In this document: in pieces, positions 600-63,009 of the stretch
How the letters are laid out: every line of letters starts with the position of its first letter
How positions within the stretch are numbered: position 1 is the first letter of the stretch
Source of the DNA: Gautieria morchelliformis
Lineage: Eukaryota > Basidiomycota > Agaricomycetes > Gomphales > Gomphaceae
DNA: 64,000 nucleotides
Direction of reading: 5' to 3'
Assembly (NCBI GenBank): GCA_015179125.1
Contig: WHVA01000088.1
Location: 186,001-250,000, forward strand
Made by a program: the position numbers and the translations under genes
Notes under the pieces: model-generated
The model's input: the letters and a program-made list of their open reading frames with translations, nothing else
What the model was told of the DNA's origin: nothing
The model's database searches: none

Positions 600-1627
600 T
601 CACCATACGAGGCTTGAATGGAAGACCGGTGAAATGCGACGGCTTTTCAGCTCATCAGGAAGATCAAGGGTCACAGTCGAGGCGTCGTTGTGAGCCTTGA
701 AAACGCGGTACGGTCCGATGTACCGTGGGACTAGTTTTCTGGCTCTTCCTTTCGGGAGAGTTAGGTTTTGTGTCAAGAGGTAGACGCGGTCGTTGGCCGC
801 GTACCTGTCGCTTGCCATACGTTTCTTATTTGCATGAAACGTTTGCGTCACTCGATGCTCTATGATTGCATTGTGTGCCACCATCAGGTTCCATTTTGCC
901 TGATGTGTGAACCGGGCTACTCCCTTGAACGGGGTGTCCACGGCTATGGGGAGGTCTATCCGCGGCATATAGCCGTGGTTCAGCTCGAAAGGTGTGAACC
1001 CTGTGGTCGCGCTGACGTTGCTGTTGAGGGCGACCTCAACCATTGGGCATTTCAATGCCCAATCCTTCTGATTGTCTCTGACGACCGCGCGCAATATCTG
1101 GCCGATCGAGCGGTTTGCCCGCTCGGTGGCTCCATCCGTTTGGGGATGGAAGGCAGTTGACATGAGGAGCTTAGTCCCCATGAGTCGCTGTAGTTCAGGC
1201 CAGAAGATTGACGTGAACTTCGAGTCTCTGTCCGAGACGATGGAGTCGGGAACTCCGTGGAGTTGAATGACCTCCTTCAGAAACAGCCAGGCAGGCTACT
1301 CCCTTGGCTGACACGCTCGTCGTGGTTGGTACGAGGTGTACGAGCGACGTTAGTCGGTCGATGACTACCATCAGGTAGTCACAGTCGTTGGATTTGGGCG
1401 GGGGCCCCATGAAGTCGATGCCAATCGACTGCCACGGCCTATCTGGAATGGGTAGGCTGTGTAGTAGGCCTTTGGGCCGTTGTGGTCCGGTTTTCGTCAT
1501 CTGACACCTCGTGCACGATGTGCAGAATGCTTCTATGTCTGGGCTCATGCCCAGCCACCAATATGCTCTTCGAATGTAGTTCGAAGTCTTCAGATGGCTG
1601 TAGTGGCCGACTATCTGATGTGCCCGA
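600..1627 (-). mobile_element. integrase region of the chromovirus
   Basis: Minus-strand segments hold the integrase of the chromovirus. Visible are part of the zinc-binding region (CTSCTRCQMTKTG), the start of the catalytic core (GIDFMGPPPKS), the late core (STAFHPQTDGATERANR) and the C-terminal barrel leading to the chromodomain (VPRYIGPYRVF, SPVFHSSLVW). It is broken in places and interrupted upstream by the solo LTR that starts at 1628. Family assignment is firm from these motifs. Confidence 0.85.
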
Positions 1628-2387
1628 TGTCAAGATTGGATTTTTGGGCGTTAATATCGCATGTTAGTGGTGAATGCCCGAATAGCGTGTGCGATCTAGC
1701 GAATCGCCCAGCGAACAGTACCGAAGAGGTAAGGGTTAAGAAGTAAGAGGGTTACTCGAAAGGAATTCGCCCTGATCTACAGTCATAGCGAAATAGCCCG
1801 TGGCACTTGACGATGTAACATGCAAGGTGTCATGGAAAGGTTGTCTAAGTAGCGACAATCCTTTCGTCGGCGAAGGCACTCCTTCGGAGCCCTTCGCTGA
1901 CAGCACAGAAAATAACTCGAAGGCTAAGGTAACAAAGATGAAGTATGAGAACTCACCAGTGATGCCTAAGTCCTCTTCTGGTCGAAGATAAAAATCTACA
2001 GGAGAAGGCTCAAGACGATGGTCACAGCGAGGTCAAGTTTGCACAAGATGGACGTATGATAATTAAACTGGAGAATATACATGCAAATGTAGACTACTTA
2101 TACCGAATGCTCATACGGTGCTAGCGAAATAGGAAAGAGGAGGTCTGGAGTCATTGGATAGGGGTGCGTGGTCAGGATACATTATAGATGGAATAGACAT
2201 CCAATAGGATGGATGATGGCCCCAACACCTGGCATCCTAGCAGGAATGATGCAAATAGTGAATGCCAAAGCAGTATGGCAACGAATATTTTGGCAAGATA
2301 TTTGCTGGTTTGGGAAGTCATTCGCTGGTTCAGGAGGTCATTCGCTGTGTGTTGGGGGATGATTCGCAGAATAAATGAATCATGACA
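1628..2387 (+). mobile_element. solo LTR, copy 1, inserted into the chromovirus
   Basis: A 760-bp insert beginning TGTCAAGATTGG and ending CATGACA, so it has the TG...CA ends of an LTR with a 5-bp terminal inverted repeat (TGTCA/TGACA). It is flanked on both sides by the direct repeat CCCGA (1623-1627 and 2388-2392), a 5-bp target duplication. It lies on the opposite strand to its host element. Much of its length is clearly similar to the reverse complement of 5010-6283, which shows that both are copies of one LTR family. No internal domain accompanies it, so it is a solo LTR, probably left by LTR-LTR recombination after insertion. Intact flanking duplications suggest a fairly recent event. 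Confidence 0.85.
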
Positions 2388-2568
2388 CCCGATCGATGAT
2401 AATTTTGATCAGCTTCCTTCCCCCTTGAAGAACAGAGTGGGGGACGGTGATGACGTCTCTTTTGAGCTGATTCTTAGTCCAGATCAGCCCGTCCCGGATC
2501 CCGAATCTCGGGTGCACCATGATCTTTGTGAACATGGTGTCCCTGTGGTACGCATCTCATAGGACCTT

Positions 2569-3163
2569 AAGGTAGAAGACACCAGGAACCGGCACCCCTG
2601 ATGTAAGCGAGCGCTTAGATCACGTGACGTGCCAAATTGAAGGACTTGGATGTTGATTTTTCAAAAGTTTGCCAGACCATCAGTTTTGATATATAGAAGT
2701 TGTGTGAATTTTGTCTATAGTTACTCTACTTTTGATCTGATTTGCTAATATGTTATTGGTCAAGGCACTCTGCCCTAGTTTGCCCAACGCTCGGTGTCAC
2801 ATGTCACGGGACCCCCCGAAATGGTCATGCGTCTTCGGAACCGAGGTTCAAGCGCTGAGAACGCTGACAAATCATATCACGTGACGCGCCAAATGTTGAG
2901 CTCGCAAAATACTAAAAGTGTCCAAAGGACAAAATAAAGCATTTAGTAAAAAAATTCTTTTTTCTTAACATGTACTTCAAGGTAGTATAACTCAACTATC
3001 ATGCATTATTTGGCTAAATCCTTTCCTACAAGTTCAAGCTAGATATATTTAGAAAACCTCTTAGGACTTAGATATGCCAAAATATGATGTGGGTGGGTGG
3101 AATTAAGAATGTCAAGAGGGGGCTGGTAGCTTATGTAAGGGGTGCTGGTTCCTGGTGTCTTCT
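2569..3163. mobile_element. 595-bp insert with inverted terminal repeats (MITE-like)
   Basis: A mostly AT-rich insert between the RNase H and integrase parts of the chromovirus. Its ends are imperfect inverted repeats of about 35 bp. The left end carries AGAAGACACCAGGAACC and the right end carries the reverse complement of the same motif, and the match continues with GCACCCC. ACCTT occurs on both sides (2564-2568 and 3164-3168), consistent with a 5-bp target duplication, although the left inverted end adjoins it palindromically, so the exact terminus is uncertain. Inside, the motif ATCACGTGACGYGCCAAAT occurs twice about 257 bp apart (near 2620 and 2877). No coding capacity was seen. A small non-autonomous DNA transposon is the simplest reading; a local inverted duplication is the alternative. 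Confidence 0.55.
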
Positions 3164-5004
3164 ACCTTAGACAGGTCTACGCCTTGCTCGACGACCCGGC
3201 GCAGGGGCGCGCTATCATTTCCTGCAGCGATGGCTCTGACGTCATCTTCGTCGTCACGTGACGTGGCGACGTTCGCGGGCTCTGGTGAGCCCTCGTTTAA
3301 TGCGGCGGATTCCGTTACTCTCGCCTCTGTCTTCTCAGTAAGGCGTTTAGAGTGTCTTGTCGCCACTGTTCGCAGCTCGATATACCAGTCAGTGGGCAAT
3401 AACTCACCGTCCGGGTTTAAACGCGCATCCACGTTCACGAAGACGTGGTCCGGGTGATTGTCATCCCTCGTGTCGCTCTCGTAGTAGCGCGACAGGCAGT
3501 CCACTACCTTGTTCTCTACACCATCAACGTGAACAGTGTTGAAATTGAACCAGGAGAGAAACTTCCACCATCTGACCTGGCGGTCAGATAGGCTCTTCTG
3601 GGTCTCAAAGTACTCGAGTCCTTTGTGGTCTGTGACGAGGGTGAACCTTCGCCCCAGCAGTTTGTCCTCCCATTTCATGAGAGCCTCGAGCACCGCGATC
3701 GTCTCATACTCGTGAGTCCAGTAGTGTTGCTGCGCAACGCTGAACTTCTTTGACAAGAAGCCGGCAGGTCGACAAGTTTTCCAGTCAGGACCTTGGCCGT
3801 AGACCGCACCGACGCCGGCTTTTGATCCGTTGGTGATCACCCAGATCGGCTCTGGGCACCTTGCGTCTACTGGACGCAGGATCGGGGCCTTACAGGCCAA
3901 CGCCTTAATGCTTTGCCAGCATTTGTCTAGTAGTGGCATCCATTCGAATGGACGGTTATTATGCGCACAGCCCGATAGTGGGGTGGTATATGCGCTAACA
4001 TCTGGCATGTAGTGTGCCAGATACTGTACCAGCCCGAGGAAACGCTGGATGTCGTTGAACGTCCGTGGCCTGCGCCACTTGCGGATGCGTTGCATCTTGT
4101 CCTCGTCAGCATGTACCCCTCGGCCATCGATGATATGGCCGAGACACTCCATTCGGATGGAATAGAGGTCCACCTTTTTCTTGCTCAGAAAAAGGTGATT
4201 CCTCCTCAGTCTGTCAAAGATGATGTAGAGGTGCTCTTCATGCTCTTGTATTGAGAGCGAGAATATGAAGATGTCGTCCATGTATACATGGACGAAGCGA
4301 CCTATGCAGTCATGGAAAATGGCTGTCATCAGCCATTGGAATGTTGACGGGGCGTTACAGTCCCCCATCTGTATCACCTGGCTCCTGAAGGTGCCAAGGA
4401 TCGTGGCAAAGGCAGTCTTTGCTACGTGATCCGGATGGATCTGGATCTGCTCGTATGCTTCTGACATATCGAGTTTTGTTCGATACCGACAGCGAGCCAT
4501 GTTGCTGTGAATGATATCCTGATCTGGGAAGGGCGTGACGTCCTTCCCCGTGTTCTCGTTCTGCTGGCGCAGATCGAAGATGGTTCGCAATGTACCGTTC
4601 TTCTTCGGCACACACAGCATGGGCATGGCCTGCTGCGCAACTGCCGGAATCCACCACTTTGCAGTGGTGTATCGATCTATCTTAGCCGACAGTTCCTCTC
4701 GGAAGTGTTCAGGGCATTTCGGTAGTTGATACCGCATGTGCTTGTTGGGATAGATGAGGTTGATCTCATGGTTGATCTCCCGTAGTGGCGGGAGTTCTAA
4801 TGGAATTCCACTAAGTCAGTGATTCGTTCCATCCATTCCTCGCGGAGGCGAGGAAGGTCATCATCCATGAGGATGATGGTGGTGGTTGGCTTAGAAGCCA
4901 TTAGGCGCTGTGTGCGTCTATTAGGTCCCGCGGCACACGGAACCACTTTCCTCTTCCCCATCGCTTTCACCGTTAGGTGAGAGCGCCTCTCCCTACGGTT
5001 GTAG
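3164..5004 (-). mobile_element. reverse transcriptase/RNase H region of the chromovirus
   Basis: Minus-strand coding region of the pol part. Visible motifs are the RT finger/palm (PMLCVPKKNGTLRTIFDLRQ), the substrate-binding segment (TKLDMSEAYEQI), the catalytic YMDD box (VHVYMDDIFIF), the thumb segment (FLGLVQYLAHYMP), RNase H (VITNGSKAGVGAVYGQ, YETIAVLEALMKWE, LVTDHKGLEYF) and a connection segment ending in the SRYYESD-type linker. This is a complete Gypsy RT-RNase H order. It is bounded by the MITE-like insert on the low side and by solo LTR copy 2 on the high side. Confidence 0.9.
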
Positions 5005-5009
5005 GGTGA

Positions 5010-6283
5010 TGTCATGACGCGTTTATTTCCCATACTCAGATGCTCAGTTCTCCTATTTTCTCACTCCACCTTCGTGTTCGTTCCGATCGCCATTGTCATG
5101 TTTGGCAACCGATTCTCGCTGTTCACGCTAATTACCATAGCCGCGCCGTCAATCGCACGATCGACGTCTTTGGACTGACTTGGCAGTCATCACTGGGTCT
5201 ATCACCTCCTCTGCTCGACCCTCTTCCAATGGTGTTCTGGTAATTGGATTGTCATGACCTGTGTATTTCCTGCACCTTGTTATCCCCATTTCCCCTTTCG
5301 CTACTCCTCCCCAGTGTTCGCTCGGCTTCGCCCTCCACCTCAACCTCTCCTCCTCTATGTCACCTCTGTTCACCCTTCCTCACATTTCGCTGAACGACCA
5401 TTCGCTGCTCACATCATTTGCCAGCAGGCACACCATCAAATCACGATCGACATCCCTATCCGGCATGATGGCTCATCAGTAACTCCATCAGCTTCTCGAT
5501 CCAACCCCCTTTTGGTGTTCATATGAGCAGGGTGCGTTCACAGGATGTCCTACCCGTGGGTCATGTGGGATCAACCCAGTAGATGAAGAACCCGTGCAGG
5601 GCAGTGTATATGCGGGCCCCAAGACATGATTTCGTACACAGGTGTCTTCGCCACCTTCACCCTCCGTCATTTCATGTTCTCCCTCTTCTCTCATTCTATT
5701 GTATGTTTATTTCATCTATGTTGTATCATGACTGCACACCCCTATCCAACCCTGACTCGTGACGGCCTCTTTCCTATTCACTGATACCTTACGAGCATTC
5801 GATATAAGTAGTTTACATTCGCATGTATATTCCCCAGTTCAATTATCATACGTCGTTCATCTTGTGCAAATTTGACCTCGCTGTGGTCATCGTCTTAAGC
5901 CTTCTCTTGGAGATTTCCATCTTCGACCAGCAAAGGACTTAGGCATCACTGGTGAGTTCTCATACTTCATCTTCATTACCTTAGCCTTGGAACCATTTTC
6001 TGTGCTGTTGGCAAAGGGCTCCGAAGGAGCACCTTCGCCGGTGAAGGGATTGTCGAGACTTAGACAGCCCTTCCGTGAGACCTTGCACGTTACATCGTCA
6101 AGTGCCACGGGCTATTTAGCTACGACTGTAGATAGGGTGAGCCCCGTTCGGGCAACCCTCTTACCTTGTGAACATTCATTGGTTCATCTATTCGCCGAAC
6201 GGCATACTTATTTGCACAAGTTATTCGGGCATTCGCTGTGTTCACTAATACACGATATTAACGCCTAAAAACCAATCTTGACA
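5010..6283 (-). mobile_element. solo LTR, copy 2, inserted into the chromovirus
   Basis: A 1274-bp insert that on the minus strand begins TGTCAAGATTGG and ends TCATGACA, the same termini as the LTR at 1628-2387. The direct repeat GGTGA flanks it at 5005-5009 and 6284-6288, a perfect 5-bp target duplication. It lies between the protease and RT parts of the host element, on the same strand as the host and opposite to copy 1. It is about 510 bp longer than copy 1, because the half nearer 5010 holds sequence that copy 1 lacks. No protein-coding domain is recognised inside. Confidence 0.85.
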
Positions 6284-6327
6284 GGTGAGTTCGAGGACGA
6301 GTCGTCCCGCGACTCGTCCTCCTGGCT

Positions 6328-7225
6328 TCAATGAGCCAGGTTAGGCTTCGGTGCCTGGGTGATTCTGCTCACCCGTGGCCCCTTGTCCTCGTTTGTCGAT
6401 CCCTCATAGTCGAACGATACCTTGCCCATGGGGATCACTTCGTTCCCCTTGCGGATCGTCCCTGGGCTCGAGAAGTCCAGGGTTATGCCGAACCTCCTTA
6501 GGAACGGTGTCCCTAAGATAGCGTCGTAATATTCGACATTCCCTACGTCAAAATATTTGTCGTATGTCTCATGACCAAATTTGATGGTCGTGTTCGTTCC
6601 ATAGTTGATCGTGGAACGGCTGCCTATGCAGGCTAGCTGCAGCGCGATTGGTTGCTCCAGGGAGAATGTCTTCATCCCTGTAGCTCGCGTGAATTCAGGG
6701 GATAGCAGTACCCCTTCGCTGCCGCTATCTAGCAGGCAGTGGGCTTTTACGCCGTTTATTTCCCAGTACCCCGATAGGGTACGGTTCTCACTGTGCGGGC
6801 GCGTTGGCTGCATCCTGTGTTTGCTTCGGTGGTGATACACCGGCTCGGCTGCCTTGTCTGGCGTGACCGACGTGCGTGCCGCCATGACCTTCGTGGCGGT
6901 TTTGTCTTCCAGCGCGAATCTGATCGTGCTGGACCTGTAGGTGGTGTCTTCCACCTCCTCGTCCCATTCATAGTATTGGGACGGTTCTGGGTCCCACTCT
7001 TCAGTGGGCGCATCTCCGTTGTCCAGAGTGTCGTTGGGTTGGGGATCACCCTCCCCCTCTTCATCAATCTGTTGAAGAGAATTTTGACCGAGATCCGTCT
7101 CCGGATCCTCGGCCTCATCGTCGTGCCTCACGGCTGCTGTCCTTATACCGGACCTAAGCCGGGGGCACTCTGCCTTCTTGTGGCCAGGTTGGCCGCATTC
7201 AAAGCACGTGGTGTTGCTTTGGCTG
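6328..7225 (-). mobile_element. zinc knuckle and aspartic protease region of the chromovirus
   Basis: On the minus strand a CCHC zinc knuckle (CFECGQPGHKKAEC, about 7155-7215) is followed by a retropepsin-like aspartic protease. The active-site box reads HCLLDSGSEGVLLS, and a downstream ILGTPFLRRFGI segment matches the family's second conserved motif. The knuckle is the usual C-terminal end of Gypsy gag and the protease opens pol, so order and strand fit the host element. Confidence 0.85.
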
Positions 7226-7244
7226 TTGGGTGCATTTATGCTCC

Positions 7245-7600
7245 TGCACCAAAATCAAGCATAATATATTAATTTATTGTATGGTGTTTCAATCTCTTCT
7301 CACATTGTTCTTGTACCATGCACCCATTTCTCTGATTATTTTCGAAAATTTCCAGTCACTCCCTACCTCTCCATTTTATTTTGTTATTTCTATTTTCACA
7401 GGCGGCTGCACCCAGCGGAGTCTGAAATGACTTTGACGCGCGAGCTCTTGGGCGCTAAAGAGCCGGGTAGTAGTACATGAACAGTGAGACAGATTTCCCC
7501 CTCTCTCAGTGACAACTAAATTCACTGAGAGAGTGAATTAATTTCTAGTCTATTCTTTTGAGCAACAAGTCCATACCTACTGCCTATAATTCCTGTCCTC
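7245..7600. mobile_element. unclassified insert inside the gag region of the chromovirus
   Basis: About 350-390 bp of AT-rich DNA with no resemblance to gag separates the main gag segment from the zinc knuckle. It contains a perfect 12-bp hairpin at 7501-7533 and a 3' AT-rich stretch (about 7255-7390). Both neighbouring pieces belong to the chromovirus, so this is most simply a later insertion. I could not fix its ends or its class. Confidence 0.45.
7501..7533. repeat. perfect hairpin, 12-bp arms, 9-nt loop
   Basis: The arms CTCTCTCAGTGA (7501-7512) and TCACTGAGAGAG (7522-7533) are exact reverse complements around a 9-nt A/T-rich loop. It lies inside the unclassified insert. It may be part of an element end or a transcript-end structure. 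Confidence 0.8.
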
Positions 7601-19645: not shown

Positions 19646-22322
19646 TGAACTTGAGAAACGACGTGTCACGCGCGATGTTGTCGCCAAGGCCTCAAAATCG
19701 TGTCCACCTCGAACCCCGACACAGCGGATGCGCTGACAGAGGATCGTGTTCGTCAAGTTACCTCGGCGCTGTAGTACTACCTGCCGGTGCCAACCCGGGC
19801 CTGCGTGCGCTCTGCACCTGTATCGGAGTCTGCTTTGCACTTGCACCTGCATCGTTATCGTTGTCGTCGTTCCTGACGAGAGCCCCGTCGATGATGCAGG
19901 ACGAAGGCGACTCGCAAAAGACGGGCAAAGAAGTGCCGCCTGGGTCGCGCCGCTCACGCTATATCAGAGCCCGGAGAGGTGCAGAGCTCTTCACGACGCG
20001 GTGACGGGCCTAGCGTCCGCCGCTTCCTGGTGGAGGTTTGAATCCCAGTTTTGGGAGGCCAATCTCTAAGCGATTAGTATTCGTTTGCGTATGGACGGAA
20101 GCATGGCCATGACGGCGTTCCTCCACAGTGGACCTGGATCCCACCACCAAGCGACAGTGTGCGTCTTCCTTGCGATCAGCACCCAGTAGATATGACGGCG
20201 GCAAGGGTCCGCGCGAGAGGGGGCTTTAGAGGGCGTTTCGACACGTGCCGTGCATGACGCTTCGAGGGGGTACCGAGATGCTTCACGGGGAGTTCGGTAG
20301 TGCGATGGATGCCTGAGGAGCCTGGGGACTGCACCTGGCTAGATGTCACGTATCTTCCGACGCAGGGGCGGGATATGTAGGGCACCGCAGAGGGAAATAA
20401 TCACTTGTTGCTATATTATTAATGCGAACCTTGTGGCGGATTTCGCTGTGCTGTGAACGAGTTACTGCAGGCATTGTGGAACGGAGGGGTGTCACCGTAT
20501 GCAGTGGGCACTCGGCGTCTTATCTTGCTTTTACAAAAATAACGAAGCAGGCCAGACGTCGATATGGTAAATAAATTAGTGCCTGGGCGTAATCGCCGCC
20601 AGGGAGAACCGCAATGAGAATGCGGACTCGATATTTTAAGATGTTGGATGTAAGCGTGCAGCGTGCCGTCCGGCCTCGTACCCATTAGTGTTTCGTGCGC
20701 CACGACTGCGATTTTGTGAGTGTCGCAGAGGAATTGCGTATGACCGTGTGCGTGTCGAATCAACGGGATCGCACAGCACGGGATCGATCGGACGCATTCG
20801 AATAATATATGCTATCGCACCGGGGTGGTACGACATTGGAAGCCAGACCTGTACGAAGATGAGTGCCGGCGCAGTGCCGACCTCTGGGATGTTTGATGGG
20901 GTGTGGGATACATGTGTGTCACTTGAGAAGATGTTGATTACGTTGGTGAGGTCTGGATTCACCCTCCCGTGCTCTGCGCATGATATTGAAGCGTGAATTC
21001 GTGATAGAGCGTGACGGCATTAGCACGTAATGCCACATACATGGCATAGACGACATACTCGCATCACGACGCGTTCAACAACAAGCGTGTAATGAACAAA
21101 AGCTGACGCACGTCGAGTAACTCCTTTAAGTTTAACCTGGGAAAGGGAGTCGGGGACTGGGGCGGCCGCCGCTGGCAGCGTCGACCGACGCCCGGCGCTA
21201 CGTGCTCGTACTTTTGTGTGTCTCGCTTGGCGGCCGAGAGCGCGGCGGGTAAGGTAATACCCAAGAACGGGACGTGCGCATTGGGTGGCGGCGTGTCTCG
21301 GAGGTGATCGGTGGGGCATGTCTATTTCTATTCTTGGAGGTGTGTCTGCCGCCGTCGCCGGGGCGGCGCTGGGGCCGCCCGCACCACCCGGGACCGGAGT
21401 GCGGGCGGAGCGGAGTGTGAGACAGCGTCGTGAGTGGGGGTGAGACACGACGGCGGGTAATGTTGCAGGCGGGGTGCGCGCGTTGGGCGGAGGGCCATAT
21501 ATGGACGCGATCGCGTCCCGCGGCGACACAGACGGCGAAGGGGACTCCGAGGGCGGCACGGGCACGATCGCGATTTGCGAGCATACATGGCAGGGCTCTG
21601 GGAGGAACCCGCCGGGTCTGCAGCGCGTACCTGTCCCAGCGGGCGTGCAGGCCTCCGCGCAGGGCCGCGACGGTCCTGCGCGGAAATCAGTGCCGATCAG
21701 GCATGCGACATGATCATGAACTGAATACTGTGAACACGCGGGATGACGTACTGCTAGCTCCCGCGGGAGCCTGATCGCCGGCGGGACGCAGGCCGGGGGC
21801 GTCGTGAGGCCGGTGCGTGTCTTGGTGTCCGTGTGTCACGGCCTTGTGGGCAGGGAGCGTGCGGGTCGCACCCACGTGCTGCGTGTCGCCGAGCCTCCGC
21901 TCTCGTCGCGGTGTGCGTCGCCTCGCGTCACTCTGTCGGTCTCGGTGTGCCAAGCGTGCGAGGTCCGTGTATCACGGGCAATTACTGGATCTCGATGGAT
22001 GCGGGGCTGCGCTCGATCACGGAGCCTCGACGGCCTCGCTGCCGTCCCCGCAGGCACCACGGTCACCGTGCAGCGCTGCGTGCAGATGACGTGATGTGAC
22101 AACGTGTCAGCGCGGCGTTGGCACACCCTTCCCAAACAGGGCGGGTGGCCGCATCGGGCGTGTGCCTGGCGGTGCCGTGCGTGGCGTGGCACGCGGCGAC
22201 ACGCACGCTCCCGCAGGCACATCCGTCCGCGGCCATCGATCGGCGCTGTGCACGGGGGCCGCGGCTGATCGCGATCCCCCGTGCCTTCCCAGATACCACG
22301 GGCACATAATCCCAGGATACCC

Positions 22323-22330
22323 TATATATT
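22323..22330 (+). promoter_or_regulatory. TATA box of the septin-like/Zn2Cys6 gene
   Basis: TATATATT in an otherwise very GC-rich stretch, about 245 bp before the chosen start codon at 22573 and followed by a pyrimidine-rich stretch (about 22455-22475) often seen at fungal transcription starts. Its presence argues for the 22573 start and against an ATG further upstream at 22096. Confidence 0.5.
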
Positions 22331-22572
22331 CCATTAGCCGCCGCCGCTCCCGCATCCTTTCCCAGCGCCGACATCCGAGGCTCCGAGGCCGGCCCGCTCG
22401 CTCCCTCCAACTCCGCCCGGGAACGCTCATCTCCGCAATAAGAGCTCCCAACGCGGCCTTTCTTTCTCTCTCGTACCACCATCATCGTCTCCAGACGTGC
22501 CCCCTCCGCCCCCGCCGCTCCCCCCACCGCCCGTCCGTCGCCGCCCCTCGTCCACACCGACGTCCCAGCCCC

Positions 22573-25500
22573 ATGCCCACGCCCCCCATCGGCCCCGGCC
22601 TCCCCACACGTCCCCCAGCCCCACCGCCACCCGCCCCCTCCGTCCCCACCTACACCCTCCTCGTCGCCGGGCCCCCCCGTGTCGGCAAGACCGCCCTCCT
22701 CAGGCTCCTCCTCGACTGTGCCGAGCTCAGCCCCCACGCCACCCGCGAGCAGGCCACCAGCGTCGCCGCCTTCGTCGCCGGCGCCCCCGCCCACTCCTCC
22801 CTCCCCCACGGCTTCGCGGAATGCGGCATCGAGGTCCTGTGGCGCGGCGAGCGCGTCCTCCTCCGTCTCCTCGACACCCCAGGCATGCAGTGGCGTGCTC
22901 CCCCGTCACCCAACACACAGCCACCCGAAGACGTCCTCGAGGAGATCATAAGACTCGTCGAGGACCGCTACGTGCAGGGCGCCCGCGATGTGAGTGCCCC
23001 CCCGCTTCCATATCTCCAGGGTCCCTAACCCCTCCCAGGAACACACCACCGGCGAGTCCCACGTCCATCTATGTCTCTACGTCCTCGACCCGACCTCCAT
23101 CGTCCCCCGTCCACCTCCACCCTACCCGCCATCCGCCAACGGCGTCTATCCCCCCTACCCCTCCGCCGCCCCATACCCCGCCTACGCCCACGCCACCGCC
23201 ATCCCCCCTCTCCCCCCAGCCCTCCCCGCCGCGGAGCTCGCCGCCATCCGCCGCCTCTCCAACAGGGTCAACGTCCTCCCCGTCCTCGGCGCCTGCGAGG
23301 CCGTCGGCGTGGACAGGTGCGCTGCCGTTCGTGTCGCCTCCTGTCCCTTCGCTAATAGTGTTTCCAGCCTCGCGACGCTCAAACTCGCCGTGCGCCACTC
23401 CCTCGCGGAGGCGGGGCTCGGCTTCGGCATATTCGACGAGTGTGTCGCATCCGCCGCATCCGGGGCCCGACCCGCCACGACGTTGGACGACCCCGCACCG
23501 GGCGCCGAGGGCGCCAATGATGCCGCGGGCGCCCAGGAGCACGATGCCACGGGCGACGCCGAGGACGCGTCTAAGGCCGCCCGCGCCGTCGCCAGCGCCA
23601 GCGCGCCCACGACCCCGCGCAGCCCCCGCCACGCGCCGAAGCCCACGACAAACCCTGGCGCGCCGCACCCGCGGAAGCACGCGCGCACGAAAGGGCTCGC
23701 GCCCACCGCCCTCGTGGTGGGCGCGGGCGTGCCGCCGGCGTGGCGGGCTCCAGCGGCGCATGCGCCTGCGGGTGTCGCTGCGTTCGTGCCCGTGCCTGCG
23801 CCCGCGCCCGCGGCTGGCACGCGGGAGCACCCGCTGTGTTGGGACGTGGCGGAGGGGGAGACGCGCGCGGAGGCCGGGGGCGCAGGGGTGTCCGGGGACG
23901 AGGTGCCACGGACACAGCCGACGGATGCGCCGGCGGTTGCGGATGCGGGTACGGAGGCGAGGGTGCCAGCGCAAGTGGATGACGCCGCAGCTGCGGCGGC
24001 AGCGGCGGATGCCAGCGGACAGCGCTCGCCGAAGGATACCTCGCCCCCTGCCACCGCCACTGCCACCGCCACCGCCTCCTCCACCTCCAGTACCGCATCC
24101 AGCCTCGCATCAAGTCTTACGTCCAGCCTCAACTCCAGCCCCCGCCCCCGCAACATGCCGGCACAGCCCCCAAAACGGTCCGCCCGGCCCTCGCCCACGC
24201 CCACACCCACGCCCACGCTGACGCTGCCGCTCCTCCCCTTCGCGCTGTTCGCGCCGGAGTGCTACGCGCCCGGCGGGTGTGCGGCGCCTGGACGGTTTGC
24301 GGTTGGGGAGCTGGTGGAGGTCTATGAGGGGAGGAAGGCGGAGGAGGGGGCGGAGGGGGATGGTATGGATGTGGATGTGGAGGAGGGGGAGGGCAAAGAT
24401 GGGGGTGCGGAGGGGACGCCCGGAGCGGGGGATGCGGGGGATGTTTCTGTCGCCACTGCGAGTGCGAGTACGACGTCTTCTGGCCCTGACGCGCCTGCTG
24501 GCTCTTCTACTACCGAGGCAGACCCGGACTCGGATGCAACTGCTACTACCACCGCGACCACCACCACCACCCCCACAGCAGCAGCAGCAGTACCACCCGT
24601 TCCCGCTCCCGCTCCCGCGCCTGACACCGACGCATGCGGGGAGAAGGGGGCGCATGCGGGAGCGGACAGGGGGAAGGGGAAGAGGGAGGAGGAGGATGCG
24701 ATGGAGGTTGATGGGGAAGTGCTCGGACAGCAAGAACGCGATGCTATACACGCACACAAACACGAACACGGAGAGGAGGGGCGTGTGAGTGCGGGGGACG
24801 TTGGATGCGGAGAAGAACAGCAACGACAGCTGCAGCTACAACTGCAGCAGCAACAACACGCGGCCGACGGTCCCGGCGAGACGGCGCTCCTCCACCTCTC
24901 CCGCGCGGACCCGACGTCGCGCCTCCGGGGCCGCTTCGTGCGGCGCTACCGCTGGGGCATGCTCGACGTGCTCGACGAGCGGCACTCGGACTTTGTGGCG
25001 CTGAGGAGCGCGGTTATGGGGTGGCGCAAGGTGAGTGAGCGGCACGTTTTCGTCTTTCGCATTCCTCTATCCAAAAAATTCTTTCATCGCATGCTCACGC
25101 GCGACGCCGCAGGAGCTCAAGACATACACGAAAGACTACCTCTACGAGCGCTTCAAAGTGGAGTCGCTGCTTTCGGCGCAGCGCGTGGGCCCCGGGGTCG
25201 GCGCGCTGGGCCCCGCGGGCATGTCCCCCGGGGCCGCCGCGGCCGCGGTCGTGCCCGTCGGCGCGGCACACCTCCACGCGCATGCGCACCCGCAGCAGCC
25301 GCCCCACCCGCACCCCAGCCCGCTGAACGCCCCGACGCATGCCGCCGCGCGCCACCGCTCGCCCGTGCGCGCGACGCCGCCGCTCCCGCTCCCCCCGCTG
25401 GGGGGCGGGGGGATGACGTCGCCGCCGCCGCACCACGCGCACGCGCATCCGCATGCGGGGGCCATGGGCCCGATTGGCGTGATGGGCGCGATGGGCGCGA

Positions 25501-28344
25501 TACACGCGCAGCATGCGCTGCCGCCGCCGCCGAGCGTGACGCCTACGAGCGGCGGGGGGGGCGGCGCGGTTGCGGGTGCGGGCGCGGCGGCGTACACGCG
25601 TAGTGCGCTCCCGCACCATCTGCACGCGGGGCAGCACCCGCACGCGCACCACATGCATGCGCAGCCGCACGCACACGCACACCCGCACGCGCACCCCCGG
25701 GAGATGTCGCCCCCGGCCCCGCAGGCGGCGGCCGGGGCGCGCGCGCGCGCGCACTCGAACGCGCACGGCATGCACCCGCAGGCGCTCGGACACGCGCACG
25801 CGCATATGCACGGGCAGCACGGCCAGGCGCACGGGCGCGGGCACACGCTGTCGCCCCCGTCGCCGCCGCCGCCAACGCTCTCGTACGTGGCGCCGCAGCC
25901 GGCGTCTGCGCAGACGCAGGGGCGGCTCGGGTTCGGCGTGTTCGCGGCGGAGTCGCCGCCCGGGTCGAGCCACGGCCAGCAGGGACACCGTGCGCACAGC
26001 GCGGGCAAGAGCCACAGTCCGGCGCAGGGCCATGCGAAGGCGCACCGCGGACACAGCCCCGCGGTGGCGCACGGGCACGGGCAGGGCCATGCCGCGCATC
26101 TGCTGGCGCATGCGCCGTACCCCGCGCACGCCCAGCACCCCGCGCACGCCCAGCACCGCCCTGCGCAGCTCCCGCCCATCGTGCCGTCGCACCACGCCGT
26201 GAGTGTGCACGCGCTGCTGAACCATGGCGGGGACAAAGGGTACAAGTACGAGCAGGACTACACGTACGACCAGGAGGCCTACATGGCGAAGGAGCGCGAG
26301 AGGGAGGACGAGTTTTTGCGGGAGGAGGAGGCGTATAAGCGGGTGGAAGAGTACAAGCGTGACCGGGAGCGCGATCGGGAGAGGGAGCGTGATCGGGAGC
26401 GTGACAGGGACCGGGAGCGCGATAGGGAGAGGGAGCGCGACAGGGAGGCGCGCGAGCCGCCTGCGGTGAACGTGCTGGGCGTCGAAAACGGGACCGCGGG
26501 ACAGGTGGGTGCGCCGCTGACCGTGAACGGGCGCAAGCGCAAGATCACGATGGCGTGTAACTTTTGTCGATGTGAGTCGCGCTTCTCCCTTCCTCTATCT
26601 CTCCCTGCAACAGCGCCTGACGCCCGTTCCCCCCGCGCAGCCCGCAAGCTGAAGTGCGACGGCCTCCGCCCCGCGTGTGCGCAGTGCGTCAAGCGGAACA
26701 ATAACTGCGACTACCAGCCGCATGGGCATACCGCCCCTGCGCCGCCAGCTCCACAGGCCGTCAAGCCTGCCCCCACGCCTTCCTCGGGGCCCGTCCCGCC
26801 GCCGTCTGCGCCGCCATGGCGCTACAAGCCGCGGCAGACCGTGCAGCAGCAACAGCAACAGCAGGCACTGGCAGAGCGCGAGCAGAAGGAGCGGGACCAG
26901 CGCGAGCGCGAACGCGAGAGGGAGCGGGAGCGGGACCACGACAGGGAGGACGTCGACGAGCTGGAGGATGACGCGGGCAGCAGCGAAGCCGAGGGGGAGG
27001 GCGATGCGGATGCTGTCGCGTTGGGCGGCGCGGGGGCGCTGGGAGTGCGCGGAGGAACGGGCGCCGCGAGCGGGGCGTATCCGGGGGGGCGGAAGCGCGT
27101 GAGCGTCGATATGCTCATTGCGGAGACGCTGGGGGACACGGGGCGCGGGAAGGCGCGGGGTGGGGCGGGGGCGACGGTGCAGAACGGGGAGCGCTATGCT
27201 TATGGTGGGCAGCCTGAGGCGGGCGCGGCTCCGGGTACGGGCGCGACGACGGGGGCGTGGTATGCGGAGACGGAGGGCGTGGGTGTGGGTGGGGGGATGG
27301 GTGTCATTGATGTGGGGAGTGAGGGGGACAAGCGGAAGAGGCTCAACCGGCAGAGTGCGAACTATGGGAGCAAGGCAGTTGCTTGTGTGCATTGTCGGGG
27401 TGAGTGTCTTGGTCATGGATTCATTCGTGTTTTTCTATCGACTACATCTACGGACTGTATGCTCACGCGTCCTCTCAGCTCGCAAAACACGCTGTGACGC
27501 CGCGCGCCCGGCATGTGGCAACTGCGCCCGCCGCTCTCTCGTCTGCTCGTACATCCACACCCAGCCCTCGCAGCCCCGCTCCAAAGGCAAGAAGGCCGCC
27601 GCGGCCGCCGCAAAGGAAGAAGCTGCGCGCAACGCCGCCAACAAGGCGAGCGCCGAGGGCGACGGCACGACCTCCCTCTCTGCGTCCCTCTCGCCCACCC
27701 GCCGCCACTCCCCCGCGTCCGGCTCACAGCACTCGGGGGCCGCGCACGAGGAGTGGCAGCAGGCACACGCACACCCGCAGCACGCGGCGCACGCGCTCAC
27801 GCTCGCGCATACACACACGCTGCAGACGCCCCCCGCGCATGCGCGCGCGCACCCGCACATCCCCCCGGGCTCGCCCATCCGCGTGGACGACCGGCTCATC
27901 GAGGAGAGCGCGGAGCGCGACAGGCCGCTGACGCGCAGCCCCGCAGGCCCGCCCATCGCGACGCTCCCCGCCGGCTCGCCGTCGACGTCCCCCGCGTCCA
28001 CGTCGCACAGGAGCAAGCACGACGCGCCGTACACCAACGGGGGTGCGAACGGGAAGGCGGCTTATGTCAACGGGGCCGGCCACGCGGACGTGCGCAAGGC
28101 GCTGCGGACCCCGGACGGGGCGGGGCTCGAGGCCGCGACGCCTGTTGGGGACATGCGCTCGCGCTCGAACAGCGCTGGGCCCGGTGAGGGGGCGGACGGG
28201 CACGGGGCGAAGCGCAAGACGGCGGGGAGCGACGAGGATGTTGAGCGCGACCTCTTGCGCGAGTCTGAGCGGCCGGGGAAGAAGCGCAAGTGGCAGGAGG
28301 AGGAGGAAAATGTCTCTGGCGATGATACACGAATGCGCGTTTGA
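22573..28344 (+). CDS. septin-like GTPase fused to a double Zn2Cys6 DNA-binding protein
   Basis: Exons: 22573-22989, 23039-23316, 23368-25030, 25113-26571, 26641-27399, 27479-28344, all with GT-AG introns (49-82 bp); 1813 residues predicted. Residues 30-790 resemble a divergent septin G domain: P-loop GPPRVGKT (33-40), DTPG (101-104), a LSNRVNVLPV segment, and the septin end motif VRRYRWGMLDVLDERHSDF. A long alanine/proline/acidic insert splits the domain. The guanine-specificity box (A/G-K-x-D) is replaced by GACE (223-226). A His/Ala/Pro-rich region and an Arg/Glu/Asp repeat (about 26340-26455) follow. Then come two perfect C-x2-C-x6-C-x6-C-x2-C-x6-C clusters at residues 1268-1295 and 1521-1548. 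The ring residues suggest a nuclear DNA-binding role for the C-terminal half. No stop separates the halves, but a separate transcription-factor gene with its own start inside exon 4 cannot be excluded. GC is far above the neighbours. Confidence 0.7.
25200..26460 (+). repeat. coding low-complexity tracts: His-rich region and Arg/Glu/Asp repeat
   Basis: Within exon 4 of the fusion gene, about 25260-26180 encodes His/Ala/Pro-rich sequence such as HAHHMHAQPHAHAHPHAHP, and about 26340-26455 encodes repeated R-E/D-R-D units from near-identical GAGCGTGATCGG-type words. The second tract has the look of a long charged helix. Slippage in such tracts makes lengths variable between strains. Confidence 0.8.
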
Positions 28345-30545
28345 GGACGTCACGATTCACGATCTAGAAGATGATGTTTGTTTTTCGGTTTTTTCTTTTT
28401 TTCCTGGTATCTGTCTGATCATGTCTCTCAACGTTGTTGTTGTCTTGATTTATTGTCTCGTCTGGAAATCGCTGTGTGCATGCATGATGCCGTGTAATAC
28501 ATCCTACTACAATACTGTCACAGTCTCGTCTCAACTGTATCTTTTCTAGTCGTGACTGGAATATTAAAAAAAAAAATTTGTCTTTGGCCGTGACTGCTTA
28601 CTAATCGGCTATTCCACACCAACGGAAACCCTGCGACTATCACCCTGGGATTCATCTGTTACCCTGCAGGTCTCCCACTTTTGGCGTCAGCGTTTCCCTC
28701 CATAATTATAGTGATCCGATCCCACGCTCCAGTTTGTTTTTTTCTCGAAAAGTCTATATGCTTAACCGACGGCCGGAACGCTCGACTCATCATCCCGGAG
28801 AATCACTGGACGTCGCGGCTCCATCCGGACAAGATACATGCTCGTATCCATCTTTCGTGAGCCTGAACCCTGTGGCACTGGCAGGCATTTCCCGATGATA
28901 GGTGGAGAAGCACTTCCGAGTCTCCCCAGCGCTCTAGAACGCCAGATGTGGCGAGCCGCCGCCTCGCGGCGACCCGGAGCTGGTCCGAGCCGTCTGCCTT
29001 CGCGCCATTCATTGTATCGCAGGATAGGTATGCAGAGGAATGCGATTAAATACAGGCAGGGTGGACGGCGCACCGAGTCGCCAGCAGGTCTCTCATCATC
29101 TCCGAAGGCGGCGCTCGTTTGCTTTTGGCATAACCTGGCACAGCCTCAGCTCCCGAGTTTTTCCCTGGTTCCTCCTGGATCTCCTCCCACACCTGCAACC
29201 CGGCCGCGGCAGTGCTCCCCACCGCATAGCCGCGCGCCGCACACGGAACACCTGTGCAAGTCATATGGGCGCTGCTCCGCGTTCCACCGCACGCCTGTTC
29301 CTGTCTCACTCCACACTTCTGAGAAGCATTCAAGCAACGGATGACTAGCACCGGATGACTCTCGGCACCGCTTGCTGCACCATGGAAGGTGATAAGCATA
29401 TCACACAGGCCGTGGCAGACGACAGCGCACAGGATCATCTTCGAAGCACTCGCCCGCCCGCGAACAGCAGTCCTTTCTCTCCGTCGCTCGGGATTCGGTC
29501 GGCAACCTACTCAATCAGGCTACATATCCTATTTCCGTGCGCACGAGATATGCGTGAGCTGTAACCATGAGCATGTACCCCAGCCGAAAGAGGGGTTCCG
29601 ATGATCCCACTCATCCTCCTAGACGTGCTCCCCTGAGGACCGGACCGCGCAATGTGAATGAAAAGGGAGCCAAAAATACTTGCCGTAATGTGGGAACACA
29701 AGGGCACGGGATAGCTTGGCCCCGCTCCGGCCACCTCTTTTGGTCCCGTTCCGCGAATGCGACCCTCCGGAACCCCTTCCCTTAGGCGAATGTCTCTTCT
29801 ATTGTGAGAATTTCACACCAGGGATCACTCCTTGGCTGGAAAGAACAAGAAGCACGGTGGCACAAGTCCCCGCGGCGACATCCTTCGGCCGTCACCCTTG
29901 GCCAGGCCTGGCCTGGCCTCGGCATTGTGACATGTCTTCTTGCGTTTCCGGGCGGGATCGCTCTTTGGATATCCTTTGCCTAGGCAAGATCTGGTTTTGC
30001 ATACACGGCGGCCCGAAGCCCTTATCACTATCTCGATAAGACGGCCATTGCTTTGTATTGTCCCTCCTGACCACCACTCAGGACTTCCCCTTCCCCTTGG
30101 CCACACGTATCCATCGGCATCCTCGCCTGCTGACCTGTGGTGGTGAATGATTAGCAGTGTCTTAGCCTCACTACTACCTTCACATTAACTAGGTACGTCC
30201 CTGAGCAATGAAAGAACCGCACACCGCAGACGCCGATGACGTGAAACAACAATAGTCGATAGTCGCAAGGTAGTACGTATAATTACATGGAATAAAGAGA
30301 AAAAAAATGATAGGACGCGCAGGGAGCGGTTGAGAGAGCTGTGAGGATACGCAGAAAGGAATGAATCCATATGCATCAAGGGAGGATCGTTTTGACAGAT
30401 AACCAGATGTAACTCAATAAAAACAAGAAAAACAACGAACAAACGGAGGGTATGAAATTGCGGACTCGATTTGCTTTGACCTTACAACCCTAGATCTGTC
30501 GGGGATGAAACCAATGAGAATCACGGAGAAGAATGCGCGATTGTA
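28345..30545. other. intergenic region between convergent septin-like genes
   Basis: About 2.2 kb between the 3' ends of two converging genes. No frame with a known domain or intron pattern was found. The first 230 bp are T-rich and contain ATTAAAAAAAAAAA near 28562-28576, a likely 3'-end region of the fusion gene. On the other side, AATAAA occurs on the minus strand as expected near a 3' end. Confidence 0.5.
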
Positions 30546-32792
30546 TTATATACCCTGGAGAATGCGCTCCCTGTCATTGTCGCTGAGGTTAGTGGTTGCA
30601 CGCCTCGCGAGTAATTTCTCAGTGCGGAAGCGTTCGTATAGCACGTCCTTCGTGGTCGCCTTGAGCGACTAACAAAACCGTCAGAACAGAAACCACAAGG
30701 ATGACTGCCAGGGCACACGCACCCGCATATAGCTTCCCAGCACAGCAGCTCGGAGCGCTGCGAAATCACAATGCTGCGGATCCAACACGTCGACGGTCCC
30801 CCACCGGAACCGCCTAACGAACCTGCCACTCACACCGGGCGCCTGCACCCCGTGTGCGTGCCCATTTTGGCTGACGCCGGCCTTTTTCACGTCCTTGTCC
30901 CGTTCCCGTTCGGGCGCAATGATGCCGAATGGCATCCGCGCCCTCAAATCCGCCCTTGAAAACATCGCGCCGTACGATGAGGTGCCGGCGTCCGTGCCTT
31001 TTACAGAACCCACAGAAGTCCGCCTGCTTGGCGACGCCAAGGAGACATTATCGTGACCGTGCCCGGTGGACGGTGGGGATGCAGGATAACCCGGCGAGAC
31101 CTCGACATCCGGCTCATCATACTCAGCGCCGACGGCCGCCTTGAGCGACTTGCGCGAGTGTGATCGCGTTAGGCCCCGCGTGGGACCCCGCAGCTTAATG
31201 ACCGGGCGCGACTGGCGCTCATCGTCGTGATCGATGTCCTCATCCGCCATTTGCAAATGGCCATTAGCTGCGCCACCCGCGTTCTCCCTCCCTGGGCTCC
31301 TGCCAAAGTGCGAGCCGGGATTGGCATCCCACACGGCGAAGACACCAGCAATTACGTTGCCGTTGTCGTCTTCGATGCCAACGGCTTGGAGATCCCGGCG
31401 CACAGCACGCTTGATACGCTGGAGCCGCCCGTCAGTAAGTGTGTCGGCGCGTGCTACGATCGGAAGCACGTTAACACGCTTCGCGAGGCGCGCAATCACC
31501 CGGATCTCAGCGGGGTTCATGCCCAGTCTATTTGGGGTATTAGTGGGCACCTTGCGTGACTGCGGCTGGGGTAATTTAGTCCTGTCCTGAGGGTACAACT
31601 CGACGGAGTTACGGGGCGTCCGATCATCTGGGGAAATCGGCGTCAAGGGCGCTCGCTGTAAAGCGGGTTCCGGGTCCCCATATTCGTCATCGGAGTCTGC
31701 TTGTTGAGGTGCGACCGCACTTTCTTCCTCCTCGTCGGATCCGGAGTAATACTCTGAAGGCTCAGGGAGGTCACTAGGTGAGAGGGGCTGTGCCGGGAAC
31801 GCCGCAGCAGCCAGCCTCGACCTCGCCCGTCGGGCGGAGGGCGTCATTATGGAATCGGGATCGATCAAGTACATACAGCTGTCCCTATGTCAGTACCGTG
31901 AAAATGACGACAGTAAGTAAAGATACAAACAGGTGGACATGCTGATCGCCCTTGCTCGTTCTGACCACCTTGCTTTCCTCACCCATTGTTTCGGCAAACT
32001 GCATATCAACATATTTGACCACACTGGAAACAGCCCTATCAAGAGCAAACTCTTTGCCCTCAGAGAAGTCGAGCCCGGGGGTATCAATGCACGTCAGGCC
32101 AATACGGTCTTCGGGACCAGGTCGATTCGTTGAAGGACCCTGTAGGATCTCCACACGCACGGTATTGATAGATGTTGTGGGACGAGCGGAAGAAGAGCGA
32201 TATGTGGACAGAGAGGCTAGCTGGGCTTGCGTATTGGTTGGAGAAATGGTGGACGTATCAAGGAGAAGGCGGAGAAGGGAAGACTTGCCAGTTTGCTTGG
32301 CACCAGCCACCTAAGATATGGGTGATCAAACACACAAGAAACATTGCAAGAAAGAAAGGTATGCTCTACCATGACATTAAAGGTAAGTGCATGTTTTGCC
32401 CTCCTTGTCGGCTTCGGGTTAGATCCAGCGCGAGCCCTTGAACCAACTCCATTAAAGGAGGAAGGTGGTGGAACGCCAGAGCCAAATAATGAGGCGACAT
32501 TGTTTGCCTGTGGGCTGGGGAGACCAGGGGTACTATCACCAGTTCTGAACGGTTTGTGGAATGGAACAGGGCCGCGTGTTCCTTGGAAGGATGTCTTGCT
32601 GGCACCATGAGGGGTGCCAGCTTCTTCACTTGCAAGCGGTTCTTGGGTGACGGCGTGAACCGCATCAATATCAACAAGGTTCTCCGGCCAGGGTATACGC
32701 TGCTGAGCAAGTTCTGGGAGTGAGGGTGAAGCACGTATAAAGACAGGTTCTGGGGCTGGCTTCTTCCTCTTTGAGCCAAAACCGAGTACCAT
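30546..32792 (-). CDS. septin-like GTPase, stand-alone paralogue
   Basis: Four exons on the minus strand: 32792-32370, 32310-31931, 31878-30723 and 30668-30546, giving 693 residues. Introns are 52-59 bp; the second uses an unusual GTTTGT donor. The domain shows P-loop GAKQTGKSS (144-152), DTPG (217-220), the septin segment RLAKRVNVLPIVARADTL with an intact AR-A-D specificity box (410-413), and the septin C-terminal element RFVRRFRWGTVDVLDPQHCD followed by a short helix (YERFRTEKLLARR). An acidic and Ser/Pro-rich insert of about 110 residues precedes the specificity box. Septins polymerise into filaments at the cell cortex; this one is divergent, so filament membership is inferred only. It is a paralogue of the septin half of the gene at 22573-28344 and converges with it. 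The ATG at 32792 begins MVLGFGSKRKKP and gives a basic N-terminus. Confidence 0.85.
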
Positions 32793-59671: not shown

Positions 59672-61728
59672 TCATACAACTCCCTCGCTACCGGCCCAAC
59701 CCCCTTTGCCATTCTCGCAAACCACATCGCCAACATACATCCGAAGCCACTGCACTCTTTCCCTTGAAATCTGACTGCATCGTGTCAGATCCAACTTCAT
59801 GAGCTTCTGAGGCAGAGCAGCCATGGCCGAGACTCTCAGTTCATGAGTGCTAGAATCCATACGTGCAAGTGAGGATAGGCCAGTATACGGTGTCTCTGCC
59901 ATTGCCTTTCCCCTTGCATATTCGGATGCAGACGACGACACACCATGGCCACTCCTTAGGATCCTGCGTGTCGAAGATGCAGCGGCAGAGGACGACGCTG
60001 ATGAGGATGGTAGACGGCTTTCCACGAGCGCCTTGAGGTCTTCCCACTCAACAGAGGTACAGCCCTCGAGATTAAGTGTAACCAGCTGTGGGAGGATCCA
60101 TTCGTTTGGCTGTACTGGGGCTGAAAGACCCTGCGGGATAAACAAACAAACATTAGCGTCTGGAACTCGGACTAGACGAAGGCCCCTACCTTGAGCAGAT
60201 TGGACGATACATCCTCAACGTCGACCAGTTCGAGCCTCTCGAGAGTAGGGAGCCTTCGCAGAAGTCGCAAAAGCTTAAGCTCATTGAAAAGACTAGCTTC
60301 AATGCGTAGAGTCTTAATGGGGAAGTGTGCGGCCTCTGATGACTGACTATGCCCGTGTTCGGATTCGTACCCATGAGCGTAGTCATAGTCGTAACCGTAG
60401 CGTGAGGCGGCTTGTTGCCTGAGGTGCTTCAGACACGCAGTTATGTTATCCAGAAATGACAGCTCGAGACGCTCGAGCGCAGGAAGGGCTGTCCGGTGCA
60501 GCAAGATACATGTTCGCGCCACGCCCGAGTAATAGAACGACAAGTGCCGTAAGTGACGCATTACGATCGGTGATGCAGCTGGAACGCTGAGCTCGTCATC
60601 CGCTGGATCCACGTCGGACATATTACGAAGTTTGAGTTCCTCAAGCAGGGGACACTGGCGTAACAGGCCTACCATCTCGTCGACGTTCGGTGCGAAGTCA
60701 TTCCAGAACCCGACCAACCGCAACTTTGTCAACCTGCGACCCACACCAGGGAAGATCATCCTTGTCCGACCGGTCCAGATATGCACATCCGGGGCCAACC
60801 GTTCCCCGGAAAACTCACGCATTCTTGGAGTCATGCCGGGGTCGGGCCCCGAGATGGGATCCTCTGAAGAAGGCGATGGCGTCGGTGCCAGATCTTCGGG
60901 GCGCTCGCACCAAAAGCTTGTTAGAGAACACTCTCGTAGACGTGGGGTTACACCTCTGAACGGCAGGAACGTTCGAGCCCCATGGGAACGGTCCCCATCC
61001 CACTCCAGGGGGATCGCATGCAACATTGGATTGCTCACTTGTATGGTCAAGGACTCTAGCATCGGTGCGGGGGAAGAGCATAGCGCCAAGGCTGCTGTTG
61101 CCTGTGGACGGTATGGGACCAAGAGCACGAATGAACGCCATCGAGCAATTGTGGGGCGTAATAGTTGAAGGGAGGTCTTGAGAAGGTGGTCAGGGGTGGT
61201 GAGACATTGCGCGGAGTGCTGCGTGGCAGCTTGAGCACTGAATGAGGAACGTGGGGAAAAGTCGAGGAAGACATGTAATGGGACGGCTTTGGACCGTACG
61301 AGTCGTCTGCGTGCCTTCTCGAAGGACTCCGGTTCGTTAGGAGAGATACTGATCCGAGACCAAAGGTCGGGAGTGCAGAGACATATGTCACGCCATTGCT
61401 TGCAGACGAGCATGAGAGTACTGAGTAGAGCCGGGGCATCGCGTGGAGACGAAGAGTGAGAAGGCAGGGTAGAGGCGACGAAAATGACGGATAGAAGCTC
61501 GTTGGAAAGAAGTCGAATGGGAGAGGTCAGAGCAACGGCTTCTGTTAGACGAGCGGTCAAGAGAAGCCGCTGGTCGAGGAGTGTGGAAAGAGTCGATTCG
61601 AGGCTATCCAACTGGGCTCGGAGGAAAGGGACGTCAACCGAAGATGGCGGTCGAGACTGGGTGAGAGACAACGTTGCTTGGGTGTATGGTGATAGGGCGA
61701 CGAGAGGTGAGCAACGCGGAGAAGGCAT
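59672..61728 (-). CDS. F-box protein with leucine-rich repeats
   Basis: Two exons, 61728-60190 and 60130-59672, with a 59-bp intron; 665 residues. An N-terminal coiled-coil-like stretch (residues 34-65) precedes an F-box (about 69-125: SPIRLLSNELLSVIFVAST and LVCKQWRDICLCTPDLWSRI). The rest has scattered leucine-rich segments such as RLTKLRLVGFWND, LLEELKLRNMSDVD, LERLELSFLDNI and QLVTLNLEGCTSVEWED, ending KLMKLDLTRCSQIS. Such proteins recruit targets to SCF ubiquitin ligases through the F-box-Skp1 contact. Agaricomycete genomes hold many expanded genes of this type. The first ATG giving the full F-box is at 61728. Target unknown. It converges with the G-patch gene. Confidence 0.8.
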
Positions 61729-63009
61729 GGCGCAACGGGGAATGCAAGAAGGGTGAGAGAGTGGTATGTTCCGTCTTCCGAATGGAAACGTAATGAAGTT
61801 TGCAACCACCAGCTAGCCTCGTGTTGACGGGAAACCACTGGACTGTCAAGGGGCTGGATTGCTCGACACGAGTGGCTATGAAGATGGCGGAACGAGTAAT
61901 GGCTTTCGACTCTCGCTTAGCCTTGAAGAACTGGACGAAACAAACGTATAGTATCAGAATGATGGATGTACACTCAAAGGAGCCAAGCCCACCTTTACAT
62001 ACGAACATGACAATAGTTTACTATATCGAATGTAGACCGAGAGGGTCGATGAGGGAGGGAGAGCAACGGAAGCCGGAGAGCCCTGCGGTGGACTCCGAGA
62101 TTTTATGTAGTCGATCTCGCAGCTCAGGCGAGCCACCGGTAAGCAATTGCAAGGAGCAGCAAGCCGCAAAACTGCCGCAAGCCGCTTCACATTAACGAGC
62201 CGAGAGTGGCTCTGGGACCAGAAGCACGTCTCTTCGTCCAGTCCCAAGCCGTCCGCCGCATTGTCACGACACACGCGCTATGGAGATACAAGGCGAGACA
62301 GGTGGTCCCACTGTCTCCACCCTGATTTCGAGGGACGAAGCTTCGCTCGAGAGAGAGTATGCTCACGGGTTTGCGTGAGATCATTTCCTGGCCCACGGTG
62401 CGTGACACGAGGCAGCATATCGGGAGAAACGTGGAAGGAACGAGGCAAGAGGTGGTATCATCACACGTTGCAAGGCCACGAATCCGGCGGCGCTAGCCAC
62501 CAGGGTCGAATAACCGAGCGAGTGAGCTTTCTCGCGATTGCCACAGAATATTCACAAGAAGCCAGCAACGCTGCTGTAGTACGCAATTTAGTAACGCTCG
62601 AACACGATTGCCACCGATCATGACGATTGTGACAAGTACGTGCAAGCCGAAGCACCTTCAAGTGCAGGTATGGATATGCAAGTGATATCCGGGAACAACA
62701 GAGTGCCACTCCAGGCCACTCGTGGGCATTTCCATCGGGGACATCTAGGCCGAAGTCAGTATCTACATGCAAGGCTTTCCGATCCATGGTTTCCGGCCGT
62801 GAGACACACAAGTCCAGGCAAGACAAGATACCGTTATCGTGAACAATTGACTTCTATACACGAGGACGTGATGCACCTGAGAAGAGCAAAACCCACTGCG
62901 ACTATCAAACTGGCGTACTGATCTGAGACCACATATATTGCCCCGCATGAAAAAATCAAAGGGTTTTGCCGGATGGATATGAAGAACTGCTGACCAATTG
63001 GTCTTGGGG
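61729..63009. other. intergenic region without a recognisable gene
   Basis: About 1.3 kb between the F-box gene start and the PQ-loop gene stop. Several short open frames exist on both strands but none shows a domain, a run of consistent introns or a good start. The interval should contain the F-box promoter. Confidence 0.5.

Follow-up and report, generated by a model that had tools for sequence, protein, structure and literature searches.

The question raised by this locus of Gautieria morchelliformis is whether a septin-like domain and two Zn2Cys6 clusters, found one behind the other in a single reading frame, are parts of one protein or the products of two neighbouring genes. The window, a stretch of 64,000 nucleotides of contig WHVA01000088.1, carries the frame on the forward strand at 22573..28344. 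Six exons (22573-22989, 23039-23316, 23368-25030, 25113-26571, 26641-27399 and 27479-28344) are joined in one frame and give a protein of 1813 amino acids and a stop codon; the five introns of 49, 51, 82, 69 and 79 nt all conform to GT...AG. A first, sequence-only reading of the DNA had described such a frame of 1813 residues and, within it, a P-loop, DTPG and the septin C-terminal element followed without any stop by two six-cysteine clusters, and spliced translation and Pfam confirm both descriptions. The first in-frame stop for the septin frame is found at 28342, and none that could terminate a separate septin precedes it. A TATA-like box (22323..22328, +; pattern scan) about 250 bases 5' of the frame's first ATG is likely the promoter of the whole gene. 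At the other end a T-rich 3' flank follows (28345..28600, +), in which GC drops to about 0.45 and the pattern scan detects poly(A)-type signals as well as runs of T from 28381 on; at the stop codon the GC content falls from 0.74 to 0.47 and 0.44 in 250-base windows.

Elsewhere in the window, in a Pfam survey that covered 10 of the 23 filtered open frames, frames at 603-7254 (-) matching a Tf2-1-like SH3 domain, reverse transcriptase and RNase H, and a gag-type protease with zinc knuckle are those of a Ty3-like retrotransposon; a 546-codon open frame at 60175-61812 (-) shows an F-box-like match (PF12937, 26.8 bits).

The N-terminal part of the protein (residues 1-812) matches the Pfam Septin profile (PF00735) with E 3.4e-18 and 66.3 bits, the cut-off being 26.2. 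The match falls into three stretches, which are one interrupted domain and not three. Septins are defined, in the accessible part of Pan et al. 2007 (PMC1931588), by a G1 motif GxxxxGK[ST], a G3 motif DxxG, a G4 motif xKxD, a polybasic segment and the septin unique element. G1 is present as GPPRVGKT (residues 33-40; 22669..22692, +) and G3 as DTPG (residues 101-104; 22873..22884, +). The unique element (residues ~753-809; 24929..25181, +) is located by Pfam and by alignment to Cdc11 at the C-terminal end of the domain, where it covers profile positions 222-275 and is split by intron 3 (25031-25112). The G4 motif has been lost: the aligned position (residues 223-226; 23288..23299, +) reads GACE. 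This assignment is weak in the Cdc11 alignment (0.5 bits for the stretch), but the same position is obtained with a second septin (7.8 bits) and with a paralogue discussed below. A polybasic segment was not found ahead of G1, the 32 residues up to G1 containing one arginine and no lysine, and approximately 490 residues, mostly of low complexity, separate the G4 region from the C-terminal element. Going by these motifs, 'septin-like' is the right word for the N-terminal half.

The same features bear on the suggestion that the fused gene encodes a septin half that retains GTP binding at the cortex of the cell and relays this signal to the zinc clusters. The intact G1 and G3 motifs and the conserved C-terminal element would fit such a function, whereas the loss of G4, the missing polybasic segment and the long insert all speak against it, and we regard it as highly improbable. 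The sequence-only reading had proposed a link of cortical GTP sensing to gene expression, which the lost G4 motif and the absent polybasic segment leave without support.

Comparison with solved structures leads to the same family. At E ≤ 0.1 the septin half found 37 solved sequences, 36 septins and a single fatty acid synthase; the similarity depends on the C-terminal element. Canonical septins such as Cdc11 (PDB 5ar1) share this element (residues 753-805, with an E of 8e-11 for the whole sequence) as well as G1 and G3. They differ from the fusion protein in having G4 and the polybasic segment, in lacking the added C-terminal zinc clusters and in length, with about 300-600 residues as compared to 1813.

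The C-terminal part (residues 1159-1813) matches Pfam Zn_clus (PF00172) in two stretches with E 5.3e-19 and 68.5 bits against a cut-off of 21. Both clusters read CX2CX6CX6CX2CX6C in the spliced protein, with motif starts at residues 1267 (ACNFC) and 1520 (ACVHC), and thus agree with the Zn2Cys6 definition CX2CX6CX5-12CX2CX6-8C given in the available text of PMC7295025. The first cluster (residues 1268-1295; 26556..26708, +) is split by intron 4 (26572-26640) and the second (residues 1521-1548; 27384..27546, +) by intron 5 (27400-27478). Since a phase 1 intron directly after CxxCR interrupts both of them, the sequence suggests that one cluster may be a copy of the other that arose by duplication. 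Basic stretches, RKRK and KRKR, precede the two clusters, and a KKRK is present near the end of the protein. Among solved proteins GAL4 is the best relative (E 4.5e-8 with a trimmed zinc-half query), and cluster spacing and Pfam match are those of GAL4-type regulators. Unlike these, the fusion protein has its clusters doubled and at the C-terminus, contains a septin-like domain and gave no match to Fungal_trans (PF04082) at E ≤ 1 in residues 1-812 or 1159-1813, the regions that the Pfam scans took in on either side of the linker (813-1158). PF04082 is common but not required in such proteins; according to PMC7295025 it is present in 43 of the 66 zinc cluster proteins of Pleurotus ostreatus.

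Whether the two halves are joined can be judged from the DNA between them. The linker (25185..26190, +; 1006 bases) is rich in alanine, histidine, proline and glycine codons, has a GC content of 79.5% and contains no in-frame stop. The gene lies in a GC-rich island with sharp edges (22000-28340) of 70-73% GC in 2-kb windows, as compared to 39-60% elsewhere in the window and to 45-60% at a first set of eight septin loci of the same genome. In 250-base windows the GC content climbs to 0.81 past the septin half, and the GC-rich composition is alike on either side of the junction. An alternative to a fusion is that two adjacent genes, a septin-like one and a tandem Zn2Cys6 one starting from an ATG in exon 4, merely seem joined since GC-rich DNA is poor in stop codons. 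Indeed, three of the six linker frames are without a stop, and 406 of 2000 dinucleotide shuffles of the linker were likewise open. The open frame was therefore rejected as proof of a fusion; at 79.5% GC a stop-free linker is poor evidence. Exon 4 also offers eleven in-frame ATGs from which a separate zinc-cluster protein could start, and five donor-like sites are candidates for a hidden splice to a septin-only product.

Better evidence of linker coding than the open frame is the period-3 signal, which runs through the entire linker. Its signal-to-noise ratio is 23.3, as compared to a mean of 1.0 and a maximum of 4.9 in 500 base shuffles; exons 1, 3, 5 and 6 reach 11.2 to 27.0, and the flanks give 0.7 (1320 bases upstream, 68% GC, and thus not matched in GC to the linker) and 1.0 (2256 bases downstream, 53% GC). 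In 150-base windows 18 of the 19 windows of exon 4 show values of 2.3-12.1, and the 18 upstream windows show 0.3-2.5, so that the ranges touch. The one low window of exon 4 is the last (1.0), which is explained only in part by the 41 bases of intron 4 that it includes. Tandem repeats above the score limit cover only three short pieces of the linker, and it is thus unlikely that repeats alone make the signal. The synonymous codon score of the sense frame (15.8 bits) exceeds all of 2000 shuffles (mean -11.9, maximum 15.2), but is weak support because one antisense frame, which contains one stop, scores higher (28.0 bits). Equally weak is the evidence from the pattern scan, by which neither a TATA box nor a poly(A)-type signal nor a T4 run was detected in the linker, because other GC-rich exons are nearly devoid of these patterns, too.

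A second copy or allele that could be compared over the junction was not found in the genome. One search gave eight matches: six are the fusion gene, and the remaining two, at other places, are weak (26.5 and 23.6 bits). In a further copy search the 11 matches were the fusion gene (7), the paralogue (2) and two other septins. Collections of viral, bacterial and archaeal contigs yielded 18 and 176 pattern matches, none of which was confirmed; this says little about fungi, and two of the six peptide patterns used spanned artificial joins resulting from omitted pieces.

The septin-like paralogue (30546..32792, -), recognised by tblastn, Pfam and motifs, is the tail-to-tail neighbour of the fusion gene and has a stop at 30548-30546 and a putative start at 32792. 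It ends 20 residues past the septin C-terminal element and is without zinc clusters. Its G4 position reads ARAD, and the one long exon that was scanned matches the Septin profile with 64.2 bits. In a tblastn search against 3201 bases the C-terminal element of the fusion protein matched it with E 1.5e-16 and 48.6% identity (intron residues counted); the G1-G3 region gave E 1.5e-9 (25.7%) and the G4 region E 1.1e-7 (27.4%). By alignment, the last intron is at nearly the same place as in the fusion gene. When the genome (122 Mb, 1113 contigs) was searched with the Septin profile, unspliced and exon by exon, 28 matches were obtained at E ≤ 0.001, of which none is the fusion gene and three are this minus-strand neighbour. 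We assume that one of two neighbouring septin-like genes would have become joined to a tandem zinc-cluster gene. At the same time the paralogue stands alone as a septin-like gene and has a stop codon of its own, and in this respect it favours two adjacent genes over one. At the present locus, in contrast, a separate septin could arise only with a stop codon or with a splice that has escaped detection. This, the coding signal that continues through the linker, the weak evidence of its missing promoter and 3'-end patterns, and a relative reported as joined make the presence of two separate genes unlikely.

This relative is PoZCP55 of P. ostreatus. Hou et al. 2020 (PMC7295025) list, in the portion of their article available, 66 zinc cluster proteins of this fungus, with gene models corrected by RNA-seq reads; PoZCP55 has three PF00735 matches and behind them, in its last third, two zinc clusters, forms its own clade among the 66 proteins and is given no function there. 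The order of domains is the same in the fusion protein, where a single gene likewise encodes septin matches first and two C-terminal zinc clusters after them, and the three PF00735 matches of PoZCP55 correspond to the three stretches of the present septin-like domain. A difference is length: PoZCP55 has at most 1386 residues, the longest of the 66 proteins as reported there, as compared to 1813. Kinship of the two is inferred from this reported architecture and not from sequence (the record of PoZCP55 is within MN652925-MN652990), and the short reads behind its gene model could join read-through neighbours as well. Besides PMC7295025 no paper describing a septin/zinc-cluster fusion was recognised among the matches listed in the open-licence section of PubMed Central; PMC4035324 and PMC12194055 contain both terms, and the fusion is absent from the parts of them that were available. 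As far as the accessible text of Hou et al. goes, the present protein is the second listed case of a PoZCP55-type hybrid, and neither the first nor an undescribed one. The idea of one joined gene thus stands, on the coding signal of the linker and the architecture of PoZCP55, but the accompanying statement that no described fusion was known and the suggestion of cortical GTP sensing do not. The search for the same joined architecture in relatives, proposed at the outset, has with the reported PoZCP55 produced an example that contradicts the possibility of the halves being always separate. On the sequence evidence it is very probable that one gene encodes a single fused septin-like/zinc-cluster protein, and the fusion is probably real and common to different fungi.

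How such a protein might work can be outlined as follows. A septin-derived N-terminus without G4 would be followed by a disordered linker and by the two C-terminal Zn2Cys6 clusters, and the protein would presumably be a regulator that binds DNA in the nucleus. Together with the basic stretches ahead of them, the clusters would contact two DNA half-sites. The pseudo-septin domain, having no normal GTP switch, would pair subunits or bind septins and in this way replace PF04082. We put forward only tentatively this division of labour, in which the clusters would sit on DNA and the pseudo-septin would serve as a pairing or docking module. Alternatively, the septin half could be a decaying remnant that rides on a working zinc-cluster gene, as the loss of G4 and the long insert splitting the domain would allow. 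The P-loop, DTPG and the C-terminal element are still in frame, however, the period-3 signal in exons 1 and 3 is strong, and PoZCP55 is reported to retain its septin matches; a mere remnant is therefore very improbable.

It is conceivable, although improbable, that the pseudo-septin domain co-assembles with septins at septa and that only a change in the septin structure lets the zinc-cluster half enter the nucleus; the gene family would then be kept across mushroom-forming fungi and expression would follow cell partitioning. The occurrence of a septin-like domain together with two zinc clusters in a second fungus speaks against a one-off annotation error and expands a single sentence in a survey of mushroom genes into a probable gene family. 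It thereby provides a concrete case for the question whether septin-derived domains can act directly on genes.
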